Notes under the pieces: generated by a model
What the model saw: only the letters and a program-made list of their open reading frames with translations
Database searches by the model: none
What the model was told of the DNA's origin: nothing
Program-made: the position numbers and the translations under genes
In this document: positions 5,986 through 59,355 of the stretch, in pieces
Position numbering within the stretch: position 1 is the first letter of the stretch
How the letters are laid out: every line of letters begins with the position of its first letter
Source of the DNA: Dioscorea cayenensis subsp. rotundata
Taxonomy: Eukaryota; Streptophyta; Magnoliopsida; Dioscoreales; Dioscoreaceae
DNA length: 64,000 nt
Direction of reading: 5' to 3'
Assembly: GCF_009730915.1 (NCBI RefSeq)
Contig: NC_052481.1
Coordinates: 4,154,001 to 4,218,000 of the forward strand

Positions 5986-6364
5986 CAAATCAAATTTAAT
6001 TTCTTATGACTTCAAGAGATTATGGGTTCATGACTTCCATTAGAGGCAAGCTCTTAATGTTAATTACCCTGGACATTATCGCAGGAACCTCCGATTAAGA
6101 AATAAATGTGAACAAGGAAACATGTTGTGACAATCAATTTCATTCATTTCAATAAATATGAATTCATGGGCTTCATTGAAAATACAAGAAATTTGAAATC
6201 ATTTTGATTTATGAACTTGTGTCCGAACTGTGTCTCGGACATTTTTACATTTTGAATTTGATTTGTATTTCAAGTTCTGGATCCTCTATGTTGATGAATC
6301 ATAAACTTTATTTTGACTTTCCATAAGCTTCAGCTTTTATGTTTGTGAAACTTCCTTCAAGTCT

Positions 6365-6700
6365 TGACTTGTGAAACTCTTTGGGTCTTTGACTTTTGAT
6401 GTCTTGACACTGTTGAGTCCAATTGTCGATTTATATAGATTTTCAAATATTGACTTGTGAAACTCTTCGGGTCTTCGACTTTTGATATCTTGACATTGCT
6501 GAGTCCAATTGTCGATTCATATGGATTTTCAAATATTGACTTGTGAAACTCTTTAGGTCTTTGACTTTTGATGTCTTAAGACTGCTGAGCTCAATTGTTG
6601 ATTTATATGGATTTTTAAATATTGACTTGTGGAACTCTTTGAGTCTTTGACTTATGATGTCTTGAGACTGCCGAGTCCAATTGTCGATTTATATAGGTTT
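6365..6700. repeat. 86-bp tandem repeat, four copies
   Basis: The word TGACTTGTGAAACTCTT recurs at 6365, 6451, 6537 and 6623 (GTGGAACTC in the last), a constant 86-bp spacing. Each copy holds GGGTCTTTGACTTTTGAT or a variant, and GAGTCCAATTGTCGATT or a variant. Copies differ by point changes and no gaps are needed. The stretch from 5991 to 6364 before it is AT-rich with related TTGACTT words but no gene. Confidence 0.9.
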
Positions 6701-22685: not shown

Positions 22686-24519
22686 TGATAAGTGCTTGTG
22701 TGATAAGAATAAGAAGTGTTCTTTCCTTATGATGAGCATTACTTTTATCGGGTTTTAATGCTAATATGTGTGTATTTATGCTACTTTCATGCAGATAGGG
22801 TTGTGAGGCCGAATATTAGAGAAAGAAGCCAATGTGGATCGTAAATGCACCAATTGGAGGAAATCTTGAGAAGGTTCAAACGCGGAGACATAAGTCGGGT
22901 TCGAAATGCGGGAATGTGTGCCAACCACCTCGTATTCAAGTTAGCACAACGATTTGGAGGGGCACAAGGGCAGTCACATTCAAGCATTCCGGCTTGTGCA
23001 TGTATAGCAAGATCTCACCAACATGTCCGTTATTGAACAAGCAAAACGATCTACGACGTAAACGTGTGCCCGTTTACGTTACCTCGATGAAAGCATGGAT
23101 TCGGGAGTGTTTTGGGCCGGTACTGTAGTAGGACACTGTAGCAGGTACTGTTTACAGCCGGCCGAAGAAGGATGAAAACAGAGAATCCATACGGGCGTGC
23201 GTTAATTCCACACGCCCGTGTGAAAAATCCACACGAGCACCAACATGGGCGTGTGGATTCCCGATTCTAGCCCTATTTAAAGCCGATTTCAGCACCGATA
23301 TCAGATCTTTTCTCCATCTTTTCCCCAACTTGAGAGAGAGCGGCGGCTAGGAATTGGGAGAGGTTCTACGGCTCCGACATCGCACTCCGTTTGGAAGAAG
23401 GTTAGTGGGAGAGCTTTCGTCGGCACCGATCTGGTGAGGTGTATCCTAGGCCGGACAAAGGGACCCTTGGGCGAGTAGGGGACTCTCCACAATACCATCG
23501 CCACGACTATCGAGGGATTTTCTATGGATACTTTGCTTTTACATTTGATTTCATTGATTGTAATTAGCTCCATGGAGAGCTAAACGTCCTAGTGGGTGCT
23601 TGGGTATTTGTAAACCCTAGGATGTATTCGTTTCATTGAACCTCTTTATTATGCTTTCAATTAATTGATGTTTTATTTGAGTTTCAATCTTTAGTGCTTG
23701 ATTGTATGAATACTCCCTTAGAGTGACACTAAGGTTGAGAGTTCTTGTTGTAACCCTTGTGAGTGAGTGACACACCACGAGAGTTAGACAAAGATAGATT
23801 GGAGAGGGTTGAGAGGGTGAGTCGAGAGGTAGCGGAACATCCCCTTTCCCCTCTGGTGTGATTTATTCTACCTCCATTTTCTCAAGTTCTTTGCGATCAT
23901 AGTAGAGTAAATGGGCTAAAGGATGACCTTTTGCTGGGGCTTAGTTGCGGGTGCAACGGAGTGAAGCGTTGAAGTGATTTTAGCACCTAGGGCTTAATTG
24001 TGGCTAGGGACCTTCCACCTGGACCAAAGGGTTAGGTCTACATCTAGGAAGAGGATTTATCACTTGGAATCACTAGAACTCATTGCAATTCTATACGAGT
24101 GTGAGGTTGAGAGGTTATTCAATTTCTCCTCCGGGACATGTACAGAGTTAGGCATGGTTAACCTTAGATTTGGGACCATGTATTTAAGGATCTCCACGAC
24201 TCATTATTGCATCAGTTAGAAAGTATAATAGAGGGTTCTTGCACTTGAAACGATTGTCCTAGGCAGAACAATATCCGGTACCCCATTTATATCGATTGCC
24301 TTACCTTCTCCTTTACTTGTGCTTTCTTTCTTATTCTTTTACTTTTGTTATTTCACATCTTGTCACAAATATATCACTATTTATTTTTCACTTAGTTAAG
24401 AAACAATTTAAGTGTTTTTATTCCCTACTCCCTGTGGATACGATACCCCATTCATCTGGGATTTTATTACTTCAACAAACTCGTGCACTTACGGGACATA
24501 TGCAAGGGGCGTTGTCAAA
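22686..24519 (+). mobile_element. Solo LTR nested in the Harbinger element, about 1.83 kb
   Basis: The segment starts TGATAAGTGCTTGTG and contains a typical long-LTR layout: CACACGCCCGTGTG motifs (23190-23260), a UTR-like region, and near the end ACTCCCTGTGGATACGATACC and CAACAAACTCGTGCACTT. ATATT flanks it at 22681-22685 and 24520-24524. The last bases read GTCAAA, two past a canonical CA, so the exact 3' border is uncertain. No protein coding is supported. The plus orientation is inferred from the direction of the U5-like end. Confidence 0.65.
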
Positions 24520-50585: not shown

Positions 50586-51060
50586 TTATGTTAAGAATAG
50601 TATTGAATCTGAAAACTATTATGATTTATTTAATTTTAAGCTATAAATACAGAGAAAGAGAGAGGGACAGAAAAATAAAGGTTTGATTGTTGTGTATTTC
50701 CAACGCTCTTGAAATGGTTATTTGCTATCTATTCTTTCATTTCATGACACTTATTAGTTTGATGGTGATCTCTTTCCTACCCATTTTAAGTACTTATCAA
50801 AATTTAATCCTATAAGACCTATAATCAAATTAGCAGAATATTTGTATATCAATTTTTTTTTATTTTTTTAAATTAATTAACAGTTTTTGAAAATTTATAA
50901 TTTTTCGGATCAATACCTCTCATATTTTTTTACTTATTATTCATCCTTTTAATTTTTATTTTTACTTATTATCTTGGTAAATTTTTTTTTTATAATACCA
51001 CAAGTATCTCGATGTTGTTGCATTGGAGCTTGTCTTCCTAACGATCTAGTGTTTGTTCAC

Positions 51061-51780
51061 GGGTTAATTTTTTAGGAAGTCACCCAACTTTGCCTTATTA
51101 TCATTTTGGTCATCCAATTTCAAAATATATCAAAGTGGTCACTCAAGTTATAAAAACTTTCACCGGGAAGTCACCCGAGACTCTCCGTCGCCCAATAGCC
51201 TACGTGGCGGCCGTAAAAGCCCAGTCAGCCACTAATGTAAACATTATCAAGCTTACGTGGCTTGTTCACGTCAGATTAAGTCGATGAGTCATCAAAACAA
51301 TGACACCTCAGCCATTTCTTCTTCTTCTTCTTCTTCTTCTTCTTCTTCTTCTTCTCTACATTCTTCTTCTCAGTCCTTTCTCCTTCTTTTTCTTCTTTCT
51401 CTGATTCTTCTTCTCTACCCTCTTCTTCTTTGTGCCAGTGTTCTAGAGACTTTTGAATCTAATCTTTTTTTCTTTATTTATTTTTTCATGTTTCTCAAAC
51501 TGTTTCCTAAGATAAAAATGCTCTTTTATTGCCATGTCGGGACCGTCATCCTGCTCATTTCATTGTCGGGAGATGATCGAGGAGATGATGGTGTTCGATC
51601 CCAACTATCATCTCTATTGACTCCACTGGATGATGTGATTCAACTGGATAAATTTGTAAAAAAATGTTTTTTTCTTTTGTCAAGCTTTGCATTTGTCAAG
51701 CTTAAGCAAGTCACCCTTACCTAGTGAATGATATATGCATAACATGTCAGGCATCTCTTTTCTCTTTTGCTTTTTTGGTG

Positions 51781-51875
<95 letters not shown>

Positions 51876-52605
51876 GGACCTTATATCATCGACGCCATGG
51901 AGGTGTGAGAAGGAGCCTGACAAGTCGACGATGCCAAGCTGAAGGTTACAGCTAACCCGGTGAGACCTCCACCATGCACGCCCTCTCAAGTGCTCCGTCT
52001 CTCATCCAAGTCCATCCGCAACATAAGCTCGAGATCGACCTCGAGCTCCACTACAGCTTCCATCGAAATGCCCAGGTTTTCTCCTCTCCTTTTTTTTTCT
52101 GTGGATAAGAACCATGCTTTTTGTGGATTTAGGGTTTTGAGAAGACTCTTCACTATTTCGTTTGTTTCTTTTAACTCATTTTGTAAGACAGGACTTGCAT
52201 TGATTTCTTCAAGTCTCGAGAACAATGGCACAAAGAAAAAGAGGGTAGAGAAGAAGAATCAGAGAAAGAAGAAAAAGAAGGAGAAAGGGCTGAGAAGAAG
52301 AATGTAGATAAGAAGAACCAGAAGAAGAAGAAGAAGAAGAAGAAGAAGAAAGGGCTGAGGTGTCATTGTTTTGATGACTCAGCGACTTAATCTGACGTGG
52401 ACAAGCCATGTAAGCTTGATAATGTTTACATCAGCGGCTGACTGGGCTTTTACGGCCGCCACGTAGGCTATTGGGTGACGGAGAGTCTCGGGTGACTTCC
52501 GGGTGAAAGTTTTTATAACTTGAGTGACCAATTTGATATGTTTTGAAATTGGATGACCAAAATGATAATAAGGCAAAGTTGGGTGACTTCCTGAAAAGTT
52601 AACCC
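51061..52605. mobile_element. Mutator-like element with long terminal inverted repeats, 1545 bp
   Basis: The ends GGGTTAATTTTTTAGGAAGT and (reversed) GGGTTAACTTTTCAGGAAGT open inverted repeats that stay alignable for about 390 bases, including the (TTC)n/(GAA)n stretch at about 51314-51354 and 52318-52352. A perfect 10-bp target duplication, GTTTGTTCAC, lies at 51051-51060 and 52606-52615. Long inverted repeats and 9-11-bp duplications are diagnostic of MULEs. No transposase is encoded. The unique core (about 51450-52210) holds (GA)n at 51784-51825, (ATG)n at 51826-51873, and a GC-richer piece at 51890-52075 that may be captured. Confidence 0.93.
51890..52075. other. Possible captured gene fragment inside the MULE
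   Basis: GC-richer than its surroundings, with exon-like composition, ending CATCGAAATGCCCAG followed by GTTTTCTC, which could be a splice donor. One plus frame gives SLIQVHPQHKLEIDLELHY before the putative donor. I do not recognise the parent gene and both strands have open frames here, so this is only a candidate Pack-MULE cargo. Confidence 0.3.
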
Positions 52606-52800
52606 GTTTGTTCACCAAAAAGAGAGCTAACCCTCTAGTACCTGGCCACAAACACACCGGAGAGGGTGAGGTCATCCCTCTCTTACCCAACCATAGGTAT
52701 ACAGATGATTTGTCATCCCTTGACCTATTATTTAAGAGGGAAAATAAACTACCATTCTTTTATTGTAGGGATGGTCTTGTTATTTTATTTATTTATTTAT

Positions 52801-53880: not shown

Positions 53881-54400
53881 GGCGTTTGGTTGTCAAGAGT
53901 AGATTAGGAGTGTAGTGGAGTGAGAATGGTACGAGGGGAAATGAAGTATCAGTGAGAAAGAAACATGTGTTTGGTTGATAAGCTTTGAAGAGTGTAATTC
54001 ATTGGGAATGGAAAAAGTATAGAAAATAAATATGATAAAATGACACGTGTGCCTTTTATGTAATTAAATGCTATTATATATAATAATAAATTATTTTTAA
54101 TTATATTTTTAAAAAAATTGAAAAATGTAAACAAACACTTTTTTTATTTATATTATTTTATATTTGATGTTACAACAGATAGATAATATATATATATATA
54201 TATTCCCTATTGATAATTATATTGTTTAGTGTTCTAAATTTATTGATGAGTAATTGCTTAAGAAAACTACTTAAAGAAATTAAAATTTTCATTAAAAATT
54301 CATTAAATTTATATATTCATAAACTATAGGAATTGGGCTAAAAATATTGTATGGCATGTTTATATAAAAAATAATAATAAATAAATTAAATGTATCTCCT
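53881..54400. mobile_element. Probable TIR element, one end visible
   Basis: It begins GGGGGCGTTTGGTTGTCAAG exactly where the ABCB relic stops, and GTGTTTGGTTGATAAG follows about 90 bases on. GGGGCGTTTGGTT-type starts are common in plant hAT and Harbinger MITEs. I cannot find the opposite terminus, so the right border is a guess. Confidence 0.4.
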
Positions 54401-54433
54401 AATTTAGACAAAATATTCAAAATATCCAAATCT

Positions 54434-55038
54434 CAAGACCAGCCAAGAGCACCGATCTGAAGGCGGTCTAAAATACTCAAATCTCAGGATCAGCCGAGAG
54501 CACTGATCTCGAGGCGATCCAAAATATCAAAAATACATAAATCTCAAGACCAGCCGAGAGCACTGATCTCGAGGTGGTCTAAAGTACCCAAATCTCAGGA
54601 TCAGCTGAGAGCACCAATCTCGAGGCGATCCAAAATACATAAATCTCAAGACCAGCCGAGAGCACCGATCTCGAGGCGGTCTAAAATACTCAAATCTTAA
54701 GATCAGCCGAGAGCAAGATCTCGAGGCGGTCTAAAATACTCAAATCTCAAGATCAGCCGAAAGCACAGATCTCGAGGCGATCTAAAATATTAAAATCTCA
54801 GGATCAGCCGGGAGCACCAATCTCGAGGCGATCCAAAATACATAAATATCAAGACCAGTCGAGAGCACCGATCTTGAGGCGATCTAAAGTACTCAAATCT
54901 CAGGATCAGCTGAGAGCACCAATATAGAGGCGATCAAAAATACATAAATCTCAAGACTAGTCGAGAACACTGATCTCGAGGCGGTCTAAAATACCCAAAT
55001 CTCAGGATCAGTTGAAACCATATATCTCAAGGTTATCC
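54434..55038. repeat. 51-bp tandem array of hairpin-forming units with alternating A/B types
   Basis: Twelve units of about 51 bp (54434, 54485, 54545, 54596, 54647 and onward). Each has a 5-base left arm, CAGCCGAGAGCAC(C/T)GATCTCGAGGC, and a 5-base right arm. A units pair AGACC with GGTCT. B units pair GGATC with GATCC. Types mostly alternate, giving a 102-bp higher-order repeat. Inner segments GCC/GGC and GAGA/TCTC pair as well, with a two-base GA bulge and a 7-base loop. The spacer is AAAATAC(T/A)(C/T)AAATCT. No coding frame is conserved. Confidence 0.95.
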
Positions 55039-55473
55039 AATTCTCAAGATCCAATTCTGGTAGTCTTTCTTGACAACCTGTAGAGCCGATGGATCCTTCC
55101 TGGGCAATAGTTGTTGTCCCTTAAGGGCCTGCAGGGGATCCTCTCCTACCACTAGTATCATCGCGTCATAGTCACAGACAGAAGAAGCCTTTCTCTAGGT
55201 AGAATGAAGACGTTGGTTTTCCGGTTCAACTTAAGCGATCATCTAAAAGGAAAGCCATCTCTCCAGAAGGTACGCCAGCTGACCCACTTTCTTTTTCTGA
55301 TTGGTCTGATAGTCAGCTGGAGCAATATTGTCTAGCTTGTGGCATTGATTTTGACATTCTTCATAATAACAAACATTCTTCTTTCGATTTCTCTAGACTT
55401 CTTGAATCTGATAGAGCTAGCTAGTCAAAGTCCCAGTCGGTCCTTCGAGATCTCGTTAGGATTCAGTTTCTTT
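55039..55473. other. Spacer or LINE 5' part
   Basis: More balanced base composition than the flanks, with short plus-strand open stretches leading to the LINE endonuclease start. It may be the 5' region of the LINE (end of ORF1 or leader), but no zinc-knuckle or other ORF1 motif is visible. Confidence 0.4.
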
Positions 55474-58400
55474 ATGAATATTCTATCTTGGAATGTTAGG
55501 TATTTAGGGAGACCAAATAAAAGACACATAGTTAGAGATTTCCTAGACCTCCACAATGCATACGTCTGCTTCATCCAGGAGTCAAAACTAGCTGTAGTGG
55601 ACAATGCAACCTAGTTGTCCATAGGGGGTGTAAAGTTGAATGGTTTTTGTTCCATTCCTACCCTTGGATCTGCCGGTGGAATGATCATTGATTGGAAAGA
55701 GACTTTGGTCTCAGGATCAGTAGTTCACTTGGGGACTTTTTGTCTTTCTGTGAAATTCATGAGTGTTTTAGACTATAATAACTAGCTGTGTACTTTAGTT
55801 TTTGTTCCAGTCGCTAAAACATATTAAGCCAATTTCTGTAAGGAAATATGAGATCGCAAACCATTTGATCAAACCCCTTAGGTTAATTGTGGGAATTTTA
55901 ACGTGATCTTTTCACTGACGGATAAAAATTCTAGAAACCCTAACTTGGAGGATATCCATAATGCCCAAGCTCTCCTCGAGGATTTGCATCTTTTGAAACC
56001 ACCTTTGAGAGGTAGGTAGTACACTTGGACAAATGGATAGCAAAATCCAGTTTGGGTTAGTCTGGACTGATTTCTCCTTTCCAAAGATTGGGTTTCCCAA
56101 CACCCAAGTGTACAATAAGTTTGCTACCCTAGATTCAGCTTGGACCACATTCCCATTTGTTTGGAATCTGGTAGACACAACTTCCAACCTCAACACTTCA
56201 AATTTGAATTGGCGTGGCTAGCCCACGAAGATTTCAATGATCTTGTCAAGGATTGATGGGCTGAACCTCTACTTGAAGGTTATGGTACGTTCGTCATGGC
56301 GAAGCATCTGGCCTGGCTCAAAGGTAAGATGAGGTTATAAGCCCGTCATACCTTTGGGGCCATTCACAACAGTAAATTAGAAATTTTTCATGCCTGACCT
56401 AGAGGTGATGGTCATCATTCAGGAATCTCGCTCGCTTAACCTCGAAGAAGACAGTCTTGACTCAGAGCTTAGAAAAGGGCCTTTCTTCTACCCTTCTACA
56501 GGAAGAAGTCTTCTAGAAATGGCAGTCCCTGATCAACTGGCTTAAATCTGGTGATGCGAACACCAAATTTTTTCATAAAGTCACAAATGGGCATCAAAAT
56601 AGGAACTTGATTATGCAGCTCACTATTGATGATAGCTGTGTGGTAGGGGATGAGAATATTGGCAAAGCTTTCACTACAATGTTTCGAACACAATTTGGAT
56701 CTGAACAAGACTTTAGACTCTATTTTTATTAGTCTTGTCTTCTGACTTTAAATCCTTTGTTGACTTATGACTTGGAAGCTTCTTTCACCCCAGCTGAAAC
56801 TAAAGCCACCACTTTTCAGTTGTGTGCTGACAAAGCGCCAGGACTAGACGGTTTCCCTTTGTTGTTTTTTCAAAAGTTATGGGATGTTGTTGAATGTGAT
56901 ATCGTTAAGCTCGATAATGAACTTTACTCACATTCATCGAACCTAGAAAGGATCAACTGGGCAAATATCGTCCTTATCAAAAAATACCAGTGCCCAACTT
57001 CGACTTCTAACTTTTGACCCATTAGTTTGATTAACTCTTCACTTAAGATTATCTCTAAGATTCTAGCAATGAGGTTAGCCAAAGTGATTGACAATCTTGT
57101 CGATAGGGAGCAGTCGCCATTCACTAGGGGGCTATTCCTCATAAATAACGTTGTTGCCACGGAAGAGACAATCTTCAGTCTCCAAAAGCGAATCATCCTT
57201 GGCAACATTGTTAAGGTCTATTTTGCCAAACCTTTTGATATGGTAGATTGAGATTTTCTTTTGGATCTCCTGGCAGCTAGGGGTTTCCGGCAACGTTGGA
57301 TTAGATGGATCTCCAATATTCTCCAGACTTCCAAAGCTTACATCCTTATTAATGGTTCACAAAAAGGTTATGTTCGATATCAAAGGGGGTTGTGTCAAGG
57401 CGACCCCCTATCATCGCTCCTATTTGTGTTAGCTATGGATGTTCTCAATTCTATGTTCTCGCATGCGCTGGCCTCGAGGGTCCTTTTTGGGGTCCCTTTC
57501 AGGTAGTTGGGGAACATGTGTCACATCCAGTATGCTGACGATCTTATCATTCTGTTGGCTGTGGGTAGAGAAGACCTTCGCATCATTAAGCTCCTATTCT
57601 TCCTTTTTTAGGGTATTTTTGGGCTCACAATTAACTTTCACAAGACTTATCTTGTCCCCACGAATCCCAATTTGCCTCCCAATCTCGGGGATTTGAATAC
57701 CCTTCATTGTACTTCGAGTTTGCTACCAATAACTTATCTGGGTATTCCTTTAGCTAGGAAAAGACCTAGGAAGCAAGATTGGGAGAAGCTTATCTCCCTG
57801 ATCAGGACCAAGTTTGTCTTTTGGAAAGCTAGTTTTCTCTCCCTGGGAGGCAGGCTCATTTTGATCAACTCTATTCTTTCTGCCATTCCAACATATTGGA
57901 TGTCCATCTTTAAACTGCCCTCATTGATTCTTCATCCTATTGATCATATTAAAAGAGATTTCCTTTGGAGTGGATCAGACATCGATAGACTCAAGTACCA
58001 CTTGGTCAACTGGAAGAGCCTATGTTAACCAAAGGAGCAGGGTGGCTGGGTCATTATCGACCTGGAGGAATTTAATTGTACTCTCTTAGGAAAATGGTGG
58101 TGCAAAACCTCCAAGGATGACTATTGGTGTGGCCATCTCCCTATCAAATTTAACTATTTCCGCCACACTTCAAATTGGAGCCTTCATTCTAGATCTCAAA
58201 GAAGAACTTCCTTCTTTTGGAAAGGCATCATTCTGTCCCTTGCGTCTTTTCATTTTTGTTTAAGAGTGGACATTTCTAATGGATCCTCCACCTTATTTTG
58301 GTTTAACAACTGGTATAATGGCTTGGCTCCTAAGCATGTTTAGCCTAATGCCTTCGTGCTCACCTCTTCCCCCTGGCTATCTGTGAAGGATACCATTGTG

Positions 58401-58790
58401 AGTTTCAAGATAACCTTATCTGCGCTAGGCCCGATTCTGAAAGAGGTTCAGAATTGGATCAATTCCACGTTGACATTCAGTATCGATTGCCAAGTTTGGA
58501 AGTTAGCTCCGAATGGAATTTTCTTGGTCAAATCCGTTTATTGGTTTCTAATCGATCGAGGCTCATGTGGCTTTTGTGGAATTTTCTTTCTCATGTTCCT
58601 TTTAAATGTTTTTGTCCTCAGAAAATCAATGCATTCCTTTGGCTCATGTGGGATGACAAAATCCTCACCTTAGATAATCTCTTTGCTAGGAGATGCAATT
58701 TGCTTCCCATGGCTAATTGTTCTCTTTGTCTCAATAAGGTCGAAACGGTGGATCATCTTTTTTTTTTTTTTTTGCTGCAATGTTAATGCT
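55474..58790 (+). pseudogene. LINE ORF2: AP endonuclease, reverse transcriptase, zf-RVT
   Basis: It starts MNILSWNVRYLGRPNKR, the opening of the AP-like endonuclease domain, with FIQESKL; the later GRQYTWTNGQQNPVW marks the same domain (about 56010-56050). The reverse transcriptase runs from KAPGLDGFPLLFFQKLW (about 56834) through RGLCQGDPLSSLLFVLAMDV (57390-57440) and the catalytic YADDLIIL (57533-57556). ITYLGIPLARKRPRKQDWEK and ASFLSLGGRLILINSILSAI (57735-57900) are the normal downstream landmarks, and zf-RVT ends with NAFLWLMWDDKILTLDNLFA and RCNLLPMANCSLCLNKVETV (58625-58750). More than ten stops or frame changes interrupt it. The RT active site itself is intact. Confidence 0.93.
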
Positions 58791-59355
58791 TCCTCTTAGC
58801 ATCGCTTCATGCTGGTACTAGGTTTTGGTATAGTTCTGACCTCTAGGTCTGATCTTTTGGGGGCCTGGATCAAGGATCTGGGACCCTAGCACCATTTCTC
58901 CTGCTCGCTTTTAGCAAGAGCTCTCATTTGTCAAATTTGGCTTGGAAGAAATGCTTGCATTTTTCAGTGTGTTTCTATGCTCGAGACTTCTATTTTCCTG
59001 AAAACTTGATTTATGTTTCTCTCTCCAGTAGATGAAGCCACTGTTGCCAAAACACAAAAGTTGGAGGAGGCTTCTTCTGCCATCAAACAATGTATTCAGT
59101 TCTCAGGGTCACCTCCGTGCATTGAGCGCAATCCTGATGACGGTTATGCAGATTTCATCAATTAGTCCGCTCTCCTATTCCCGTTCGTGGATCTGCTAGG
59201 GGGCTTCTGTCATCTTAAGGATTTGTTGTTTTTCTCGCTCGTTGGTCTTGTTTCCTTCGGTGGTCCTTTTATGTAGTTTTATTTTGTTGTTTTTCTCATT
59301 TATGTTCCACTTCTTGTGGACTTCGCTGTTGTTTTCTTTGTTTTTGTTGTTTGTT

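Follow-up and report, generated by a model that had tools for sequence, protein, structure and literature searches.

The 64,000-nucleotide stretch analysed here, referred to as the window, comes from the genome of Dioscorea cayenensis subsp. rotundata (contig NC_052481.1, positions 4,154,001 to 4,218,000 of the forward strand) and contains a tandem array whose units form hairpins. The bases of the outer stem differ between the units, while most of the pairing is kept. This locus raises the question of whether the pairing is maintained as a structure or reflects the history of the repeat. A reading based on the sequence only had named selection on a structured transcript, a structure-dependent amplification process or protein binding to a palindrome as candidate explanations. 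All positions are given in window coordinates.

Structure of the array in the window

A 51-bp tandem array was detected by Tandem Repeats Finder at 54419-55011 with 11.5 copies, a score of 692 and a higher period of 203 bp. By hand, 12 hairpin units of approximately 51 bp were registered across 54428-55038. The array starts about 70 bp inside a terminal repeat with TG...CA ends. The left limit of similarity to several other copies lies at position 54357 or at most approximately 20 bp from it. The following features were assigned:

54357..54427, plus strand: left LTR end (TGTTTATATAAA...) with an AT-rich leader that reaches the first repeat unit
54428..55038, plus strand: array of 12 hairpin units (51 bp) on the U3 side of the LTR, with a 9-bp insert past unit 2 and a 1-bp deletion within unit 6
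55039..55051, plus strand: last part-unit, degenerate (AATTCTCAAGATC), final LTR sequence before the LINE; called visually from the right-hand flanking sequence of other copies, boundary approximate
55052..59355, plus strand: dead LINE with remnants of endonuclease, reverse transcriptase and zf-RVT, assigned from Pfam pieces; left junction approximate

Three unit types are distinguished by their outer arms, namely A (AGACC/GGTCT), B (GGATC/GATCC) and M (AGATC/GATCT). The sequence-only reading listed the arms of the 12 units correctly in every case, down to the one mismatch each in unit 9 (C/A) and unit 10 (G/A) and the shorter outer stem of unit 12 (4 bp). The claimed alternation of A and B units with a period of 102 bp is present, but is broken at units 6-7 and by the 9-bp insert after unit 2. 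In other copies the unit spacing is often 51 + 60 = 111 bp.

No Rfam family matched within the window at the gathering score, and a tRNA scan found nothing. Two translations of the array had no Pfam match. Contigs of viruses and prokaryotes, scanned for exact patterns, likewise gave none, which is the expected result for a plant element.

Genomic copies and position within an LTR

The array is dispersed in the 584-Mb genome, with at least 69 match rows at many loci among the 40 of 766 candidates that were scored; some of these rows overlap in one array. A 25-base unit pattern yielded 277 exact matches genome-wide, compared to none for the reversed control. For comparison with the window, 20 copies (20 of the top 25 match rows) and 12 downstream extensions were retrieved, a sample that favours window-like copies since it was drawn from the top rows. 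An LTR start resembling TGTTTATATAAA was readable just before the array in 14 of the 20 copies, with left flanks that are mostly different, and its first base reads G in L013 and L019. The other six arrays (L009, L015, L016, L017, L021 and L027) have no readable TGTTTATAT start.

The terminal repeat begins with TGTTTATATAAA and ends with ...TCGATCCCACA. This conserved right end was found 3.6-8.8 kb past the last array core at nine loci, one of which (L038) runs into N before the right end. For the window copy itself, a search reaching 4 kb beyond the window revealed no right LTR end. Both LTR ends were located in six of 12 copies examined. Five of these are read as solo LTRs, because a single array cluster lies between their ends; one more single core match was seen near the right end of L037. 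Exact 5-bp target duplications flank four of the five solo copies (AGATC, CCATC, GCGAC and ATGAT, the last within a GAT repeat), and the duplication of the fifth agrees in four of five bases (CTTCC/GTTCC). The LTR is 4.5-5.8 kb long in five copies, i.e. four of the five solo copies and L023/L030. For L011/L037 the length would be approximately 6.8 kb with the end that has the matching duplication, and a nested repeat lies inside this copy. In the window, a 1.9-kb stretch at 22686-24509 (minus strand) shows 81% identity to a stretch within the L037 element body, and from this similarity we take it to be another dispersed repeat, nested in the L037 copy.

The sixth copy with both ends, L023/L030, is the 3' LTR of a longer element. 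Going upstream from the array of L023, a second LTR start (L043) was found, whose first 400 bp align with 361 identities, 28 mismatches and 22 gaps. For L023/L043, the one full-length pair examined, no target duplication was found (outer flanks AAAAC vs GAAAT at L043). The array is present in both LTRs of the element examined as well as in solo LTRs. Among 66 array clusters, condensed by hand from about 100 listed of the 277 exact matches, four same-strand pairs are 12.9-14.0 kb apart and two further pairs are separated by 2.2 and 5.9 kb. Among 40 listed right ends, two on one strand are 11 kb apart. An array lies at most 20 kb upstream of 17 of these 40 ends and none was found for 23, the list of arrays being incomplete.

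In L010, L013 and L023, retrotransposon coding sequence and a purine-rich tract, the latter recognised by eye, stand before the LTR. The junction between coding side and LTR reads GAAGGGGGCATT|TGTTTATAT in L010 and GAAGGGGCAATT|TGTTTATAT in L023. In L041, the sequence AATTCTGGCACGCCCGATGGGGAACC after the LTR end contains a TGG start and is a candidate primer-binding site.

Identity of the element and comparison with known arrays

Pieces of L010 and L023 were searched separately against Pfam and matched RVT_1 (8.9e-34), RT_RNaseH_2 (1.4e-15), RVT_3, a second RNase H (3.6e-16), and rve (5.7e-09), while a fifth piece, from L042, gave no match. The domain order in the open stretches of L010 and L023 is RT, RH, RVT_3/RNase_H and rve. 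The accessible text of PMC6317226 names an additional RNase H, placed between RNase H and integrase, as the mark of angiosperm Ogre/Retand elements of the Tat lineage. The array is carried by a Ty3/gypsy LTR retrotransposon of the Tat lineage, which is of the Ogre/Retand type by domain order.

Macas 2009 is cited for tandem-repeat arrays of this lineage. According to the available portions of PMC7004042 and PMC11963269, such arrays are common in Tat elements and sit between pol and the 3' LTR. As in Ogre and Retand, the array studied here is short, family-specific, carried by a Ty3/gypsy element with a second RNase H, and dispersed genome-wide together with its element. In contrast to the known arrays as these sources describe them, which lie outside the LTR, the yam array is located inside it, beyond both the purine-rich tract and the start of the LTR. 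Its units also differ in being hairpins with paired variants. The LTR also differs in length: Retand LTRs measured 315-1,194 bp in the survey as far as it is accessible (PMC7004042/PMC11963269), compared to 4.5-5.8 kb in the five copies mentioned above. The 72-bp repeat in the 3' UTR of the rotifer element Hebe is similar in being an array of variable copy number in a non-coding part of a retroelement, but Hebe is a non-LTR element, and hairpin units are not mentioned in the accessible text of that report (PMC2861651).

In the accessible open-licence literature, no report of an LTR-internal array of hairpin units in Tat elements was found, and nothing relevant on Dioscorea LTR arrays among the 10 listed papers out of 482. 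Tandem arrays of Tat elements as such are already known, and what differs here is the position inside the LTR together with the hairpin units. The earlier statement that no described family matches the array thereby receives a partial answer: tandem arrays carried by Ty3/gypsy LTR retrotransposons of the Tat lineage have been described.

Folding and pairing of the units

Based on these results, we regard the array with good confidence as a tandem-repeat region on the U3 side of a long Tat-lineage Ty3/gypsy LTR, close to its 5' end, with pairing that is mainly a product of history. In another reading, possible but clearly less likely, the hairpin is under selection as a structure, at the RNA or the DNA level, in the active element. 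Each unit would fold in the U3 at the 3' end of the genomic RNA or form a DNA cruciform. Its role could be in RNA stability, packaging or strand transfer, and pairing would be kept in master elements while dead copies decay. This reading is compatible with the LTR identity.

A selected structure is favoured by the finding that nine of the 12 window units reach z ≤ -2; the shared outer stem is formed in eight of them and another fold in unit 10. Unit 7 falls short of this value (z -1.6, another fold), as do units 9 and 12. The whole array has a z-score of -5.5, and none of 20 shuffles was as good. Against selection, equally good folds occur in the adjacent LINE. On its plus strand, -15.5 kcal/mol is attained by 3.5% and z -2.8 by 2.6% of 427 51-nt windows; the minus-strand values are 0.7% and 2.6%, respectively. 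A hairpin this strong in a single 51-nt stretch is not unusual, and the array would be obtainable from one founder hairpin by tandem multiplication.

Within the window, both-sided, pair-preserving changes occur in two of 11 stem pairs, 9-42 and 12-39. When all column pairs were ranked by mutual information, these took the 2nd and the 45th place, and the highest-ranking pair, 26-50, does not belong to the stem. Shuffling of site patterns among columns gave ordinary values for the fraction paired (P = 0.12-0.14) and borderline to ordinary values for the number of covarying pairs (P = 0.05-0.21). The sole unusual measure was the number of covarying cells (P = 0.0015-0.0033), which, given the alternation of A and B units, do not count as independent.

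For the family-wide comparison, 287 units in 21 copies were kept from 358 candidates and 71 were dropped for low score or gaps. At columns 9,12/39,42, the most frequent forms are AC/GT (65 units, type A), GT/AC (50, type B) and AT/AT (45, type M), followed by AT/AC (30), AT/GT (19), GC/GT (15), GT/AT (6) and rarer ones. The alternation of A and B is found in many loci. In L015 and L021, 25 of 29 units are of the M type. These two copies were also observed to share a left flank of their own, different from that of other copies, and perhaps represent a sister LTR subfamily with the ancestral unit. Outside the type-defining columns, A and B differ from M in few columns, a comparison that is partly circular as the types are defined by four columns. 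A third paired change, C-G to T-A at 16-36, is present in 20 units, 12 of which are of the GC/GT form.

Pair 12-39 is paired in 267 of 287 units, compared to 222.5 expected for independent columns, and pair 9-42 in 226 of 281 (195.1 expected). At 12-39, the T-G wobble (32) is more frequent than the C-A mismatch (10), which supports a selected structure, whereas at 9-42 the A-C mismatch (32/281) is about as frequent as the G-T wobble (29), which speaks against one. In an APC-corrected G test, 12-39, 9-42 and 16-36 ranked 1, 5 and 8 among 1035 column pairs. Likewise in favour of selection, the fraction paired (0.899 vs 0.869) and the number of pair-preserving double-change cells (203 vs 110) exceeded those of within-locus shuffles, with the observed values reached in 0/300 cases each. 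The number of pairs with any double change, however, is ordinary, being reached by 118/300 of the same shuffles.

Further points against a selected structure come from a tree-based null and from the state of the stems. Under the null, which was calculated with our own script and not with R-scape, E-values of 1.3 (12-39), 10.8 (9-42) and 17.2 (16-36) were obtained and no pair reached E < 1. Pairing at 9-42 under this null was 0.234, probably due to a mismatched root state; the overall P from the tree null (0/150) is therefore inflated and is not relied on. All eight outer pairs are kept in nine of the 12 window units vs 105 of 276 gap-free units family-wide, and at least one of them is lost in the remaining 171. 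Most sampled units are thus without the full stem today.

These values bear directly on the sequence-only reading, which had inferred compensatory changes at stem positions 1 and 4. The paired changes are real and are seen family-wide, but they represent a few unit types that recur at many loci rather than many independent compensations. The genome-wide search proposed there did find the array at many loci, but with many copies that carry uncompensated arm changes. Both findings named there as speaking against compensation, i.e. arm changes without a changed partner and a covariation test without significant pairs, were largely obtained. The pairing signal is a real pattern and rests mainly on about three old paired changes. 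It does not show present selection; selection in past active copies is possible.

Proposed origin of the paired changes

With the pairing read as mainly historical, the following course can be proposed. The M unit is taken as ancestral. Type A would have arisen from M by a change of pair 12-39 and type B by a change of pair 9-42, each by one pair-preserving double change that may have run via G-T wobble intermediates or via a template switch at the imperfect palindrome during replication. Single-change forms are present, of which AT/GT and GT/AT are wobbles and AT/AC is a mismatch. A-B dimers would then have been spread by amplification of the element. Because a few unit types were copied into many loci, the pairing seen in the window is mainly history. 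Multiplication of the units may have occurred by unequal exchange or by abnormal strand transfer during reverse transcription, the latter a hypothesis reported for Tat elements in the accessible text of PMC7004042. As the array directly follows the purine-rich tract, plus-strand synthesis would reach it early, a situation in which slippage may be favoured; a structure-dependent amplification process is possible.

In purely historical terms, it is left unexplained why three stem pairs rank within the top 8 of 1035 and why pairing exceeds all 300 within-locus shuffles. A more specific proposal, which we consider unlikely, is that a selected array of at least 11 hairpins sits in the U3 of a giant Tat-lineage LTR and had its stems swapped pair by pair in master copies, aiding upkeep, expansion or exchange of the LTR array in reverse transcription.

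Template switching during replication or reverse transcription, with one arm of an imperfect palindrome copied onto the other without selection, could also account for the paired changes. It is a possible mechanism within the historical explanation and a fair rival to stepwise change, and we consider it possible, though less likely than not. According to the accessible text of PMC8794818, template switching at an imperfect palindrome can produce paired changes at once. The process has been described for RNA stems there and for coding inverted repeats in the available part of PMC8604942. The hairpins of the former study resemble those found here in their multi-base, pair-preserving stem changes without many independent compensations, but they belong to RNA genes, as far as the accessible text goes, whereas a retrotransposon repeat is concerned here and the mechanism is only inferred. 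That A and B each differ from M by one outer-arm base pair fits such a switch, but judged from the sequence, the adjacent bulge and internal loop have not been homogenised. Since the single-change forms AT/GT and AT/AC exist, stepwise change suffices, which likewise counts against template switching.

Quite unlikely is a putative binding site for a transcription or silencing factor in an LTR enhancer, with both half-sites of the palindromic unit kept. The array lies near the 5' end of the LTR, where enhancers are located, and 11 to 23 core matches were found in each of 20 copies, both of which would suit a binding site. Pair-preserving changes that alter both half-sites, however, would match a fixed site poorly.

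The neighbouring LINE

The LINE interrupts the LTR copy of the window and is not a member of the family. Of its Pfam pieces, zf-RVT was above the cut-off, while endonuclease and reverse transcriptase were below theirs. No target duplications of the LINE were found, and neither the 20 other copies nor the 12 downstream extensions contain a match to it. The GC content of the array (44.5%) is closer to that of the LINE (41-44%) than to that of the left flank (22%); an assignment of the array to the LINE on this basis is ruled out by the LINE-free LTR copies.

A reading of the array as a coding minisatellite of LINE ORF1, with a 17-codon repeat KSQDQPRAPISRRSKIL and paired changes at synonymous third positions, has next to no probability: the period (51 = 3 × 17), four arm changes that are all synonymous in the KSQDQPRAPISRRSKIL frame and the direct contact of the array with a tail favour it, but stops occur in four of 12 units in addition to a frameshift, and it is rejected because other copies hold the array in an LTR without an adjacent LINE. 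The tail is presumably LINE ORF1-like and was not matched as such by Pfam. The third-position agreement in the KSQDQPRAPISRRSKIL frame is a coincidence. A synonymous-shuffle fold test (P 0.003-0.024) presupposed the coding reading and no longer bears on it.

Other elements in the window

Several further repeats were observed. At 51051-52615, an element of approximately 1.5 kb has the inverted ends GGGTTAA...TTAACCC and the same 10 bp (GTTTGTTCAC) on either side; we assume it to be a Mutator-type non-autonomous transposon by resemblance. Directly after the LINE, from 59356 onward, lies CACTACAAGAAA, which in our view resembles the end of a CACTA transposon. Another end matching CACTACAAGAAA was not found at up to two mismatches, to 4 kb past the window. 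At 53886-54100, GGGGGCGTTTGGTT follows TAA, presumably an indication of the end of a PIF/Harbinger-type MITE, and for part of this stretch a 74% match exists in L028 (3788-3929), on the opposite strand.

On the minus strand, a stretch of 58-60 bp at 6041-6099 is 77-80% similar to the right-end region of the LTR in five of eight element bodies searched. By this similarity it is possibly the remnant of a related LTR. An 86-bp tandem repeat lies nearby at 6356-6700.

Implications

A repeat can show a signal of compensatory change although its independent events were few: a handful of unit types, spread by tandem duplication and retrotransposition, mimic strong covariation within any one array. 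According to the accessible text of PMC7004042, tandem repeats of Tat retrotransposons are a recognised origin of novel satellite DNA in plants. The yam family extends the set of repeats known from these elements by a hairpin array located inside the LTR.
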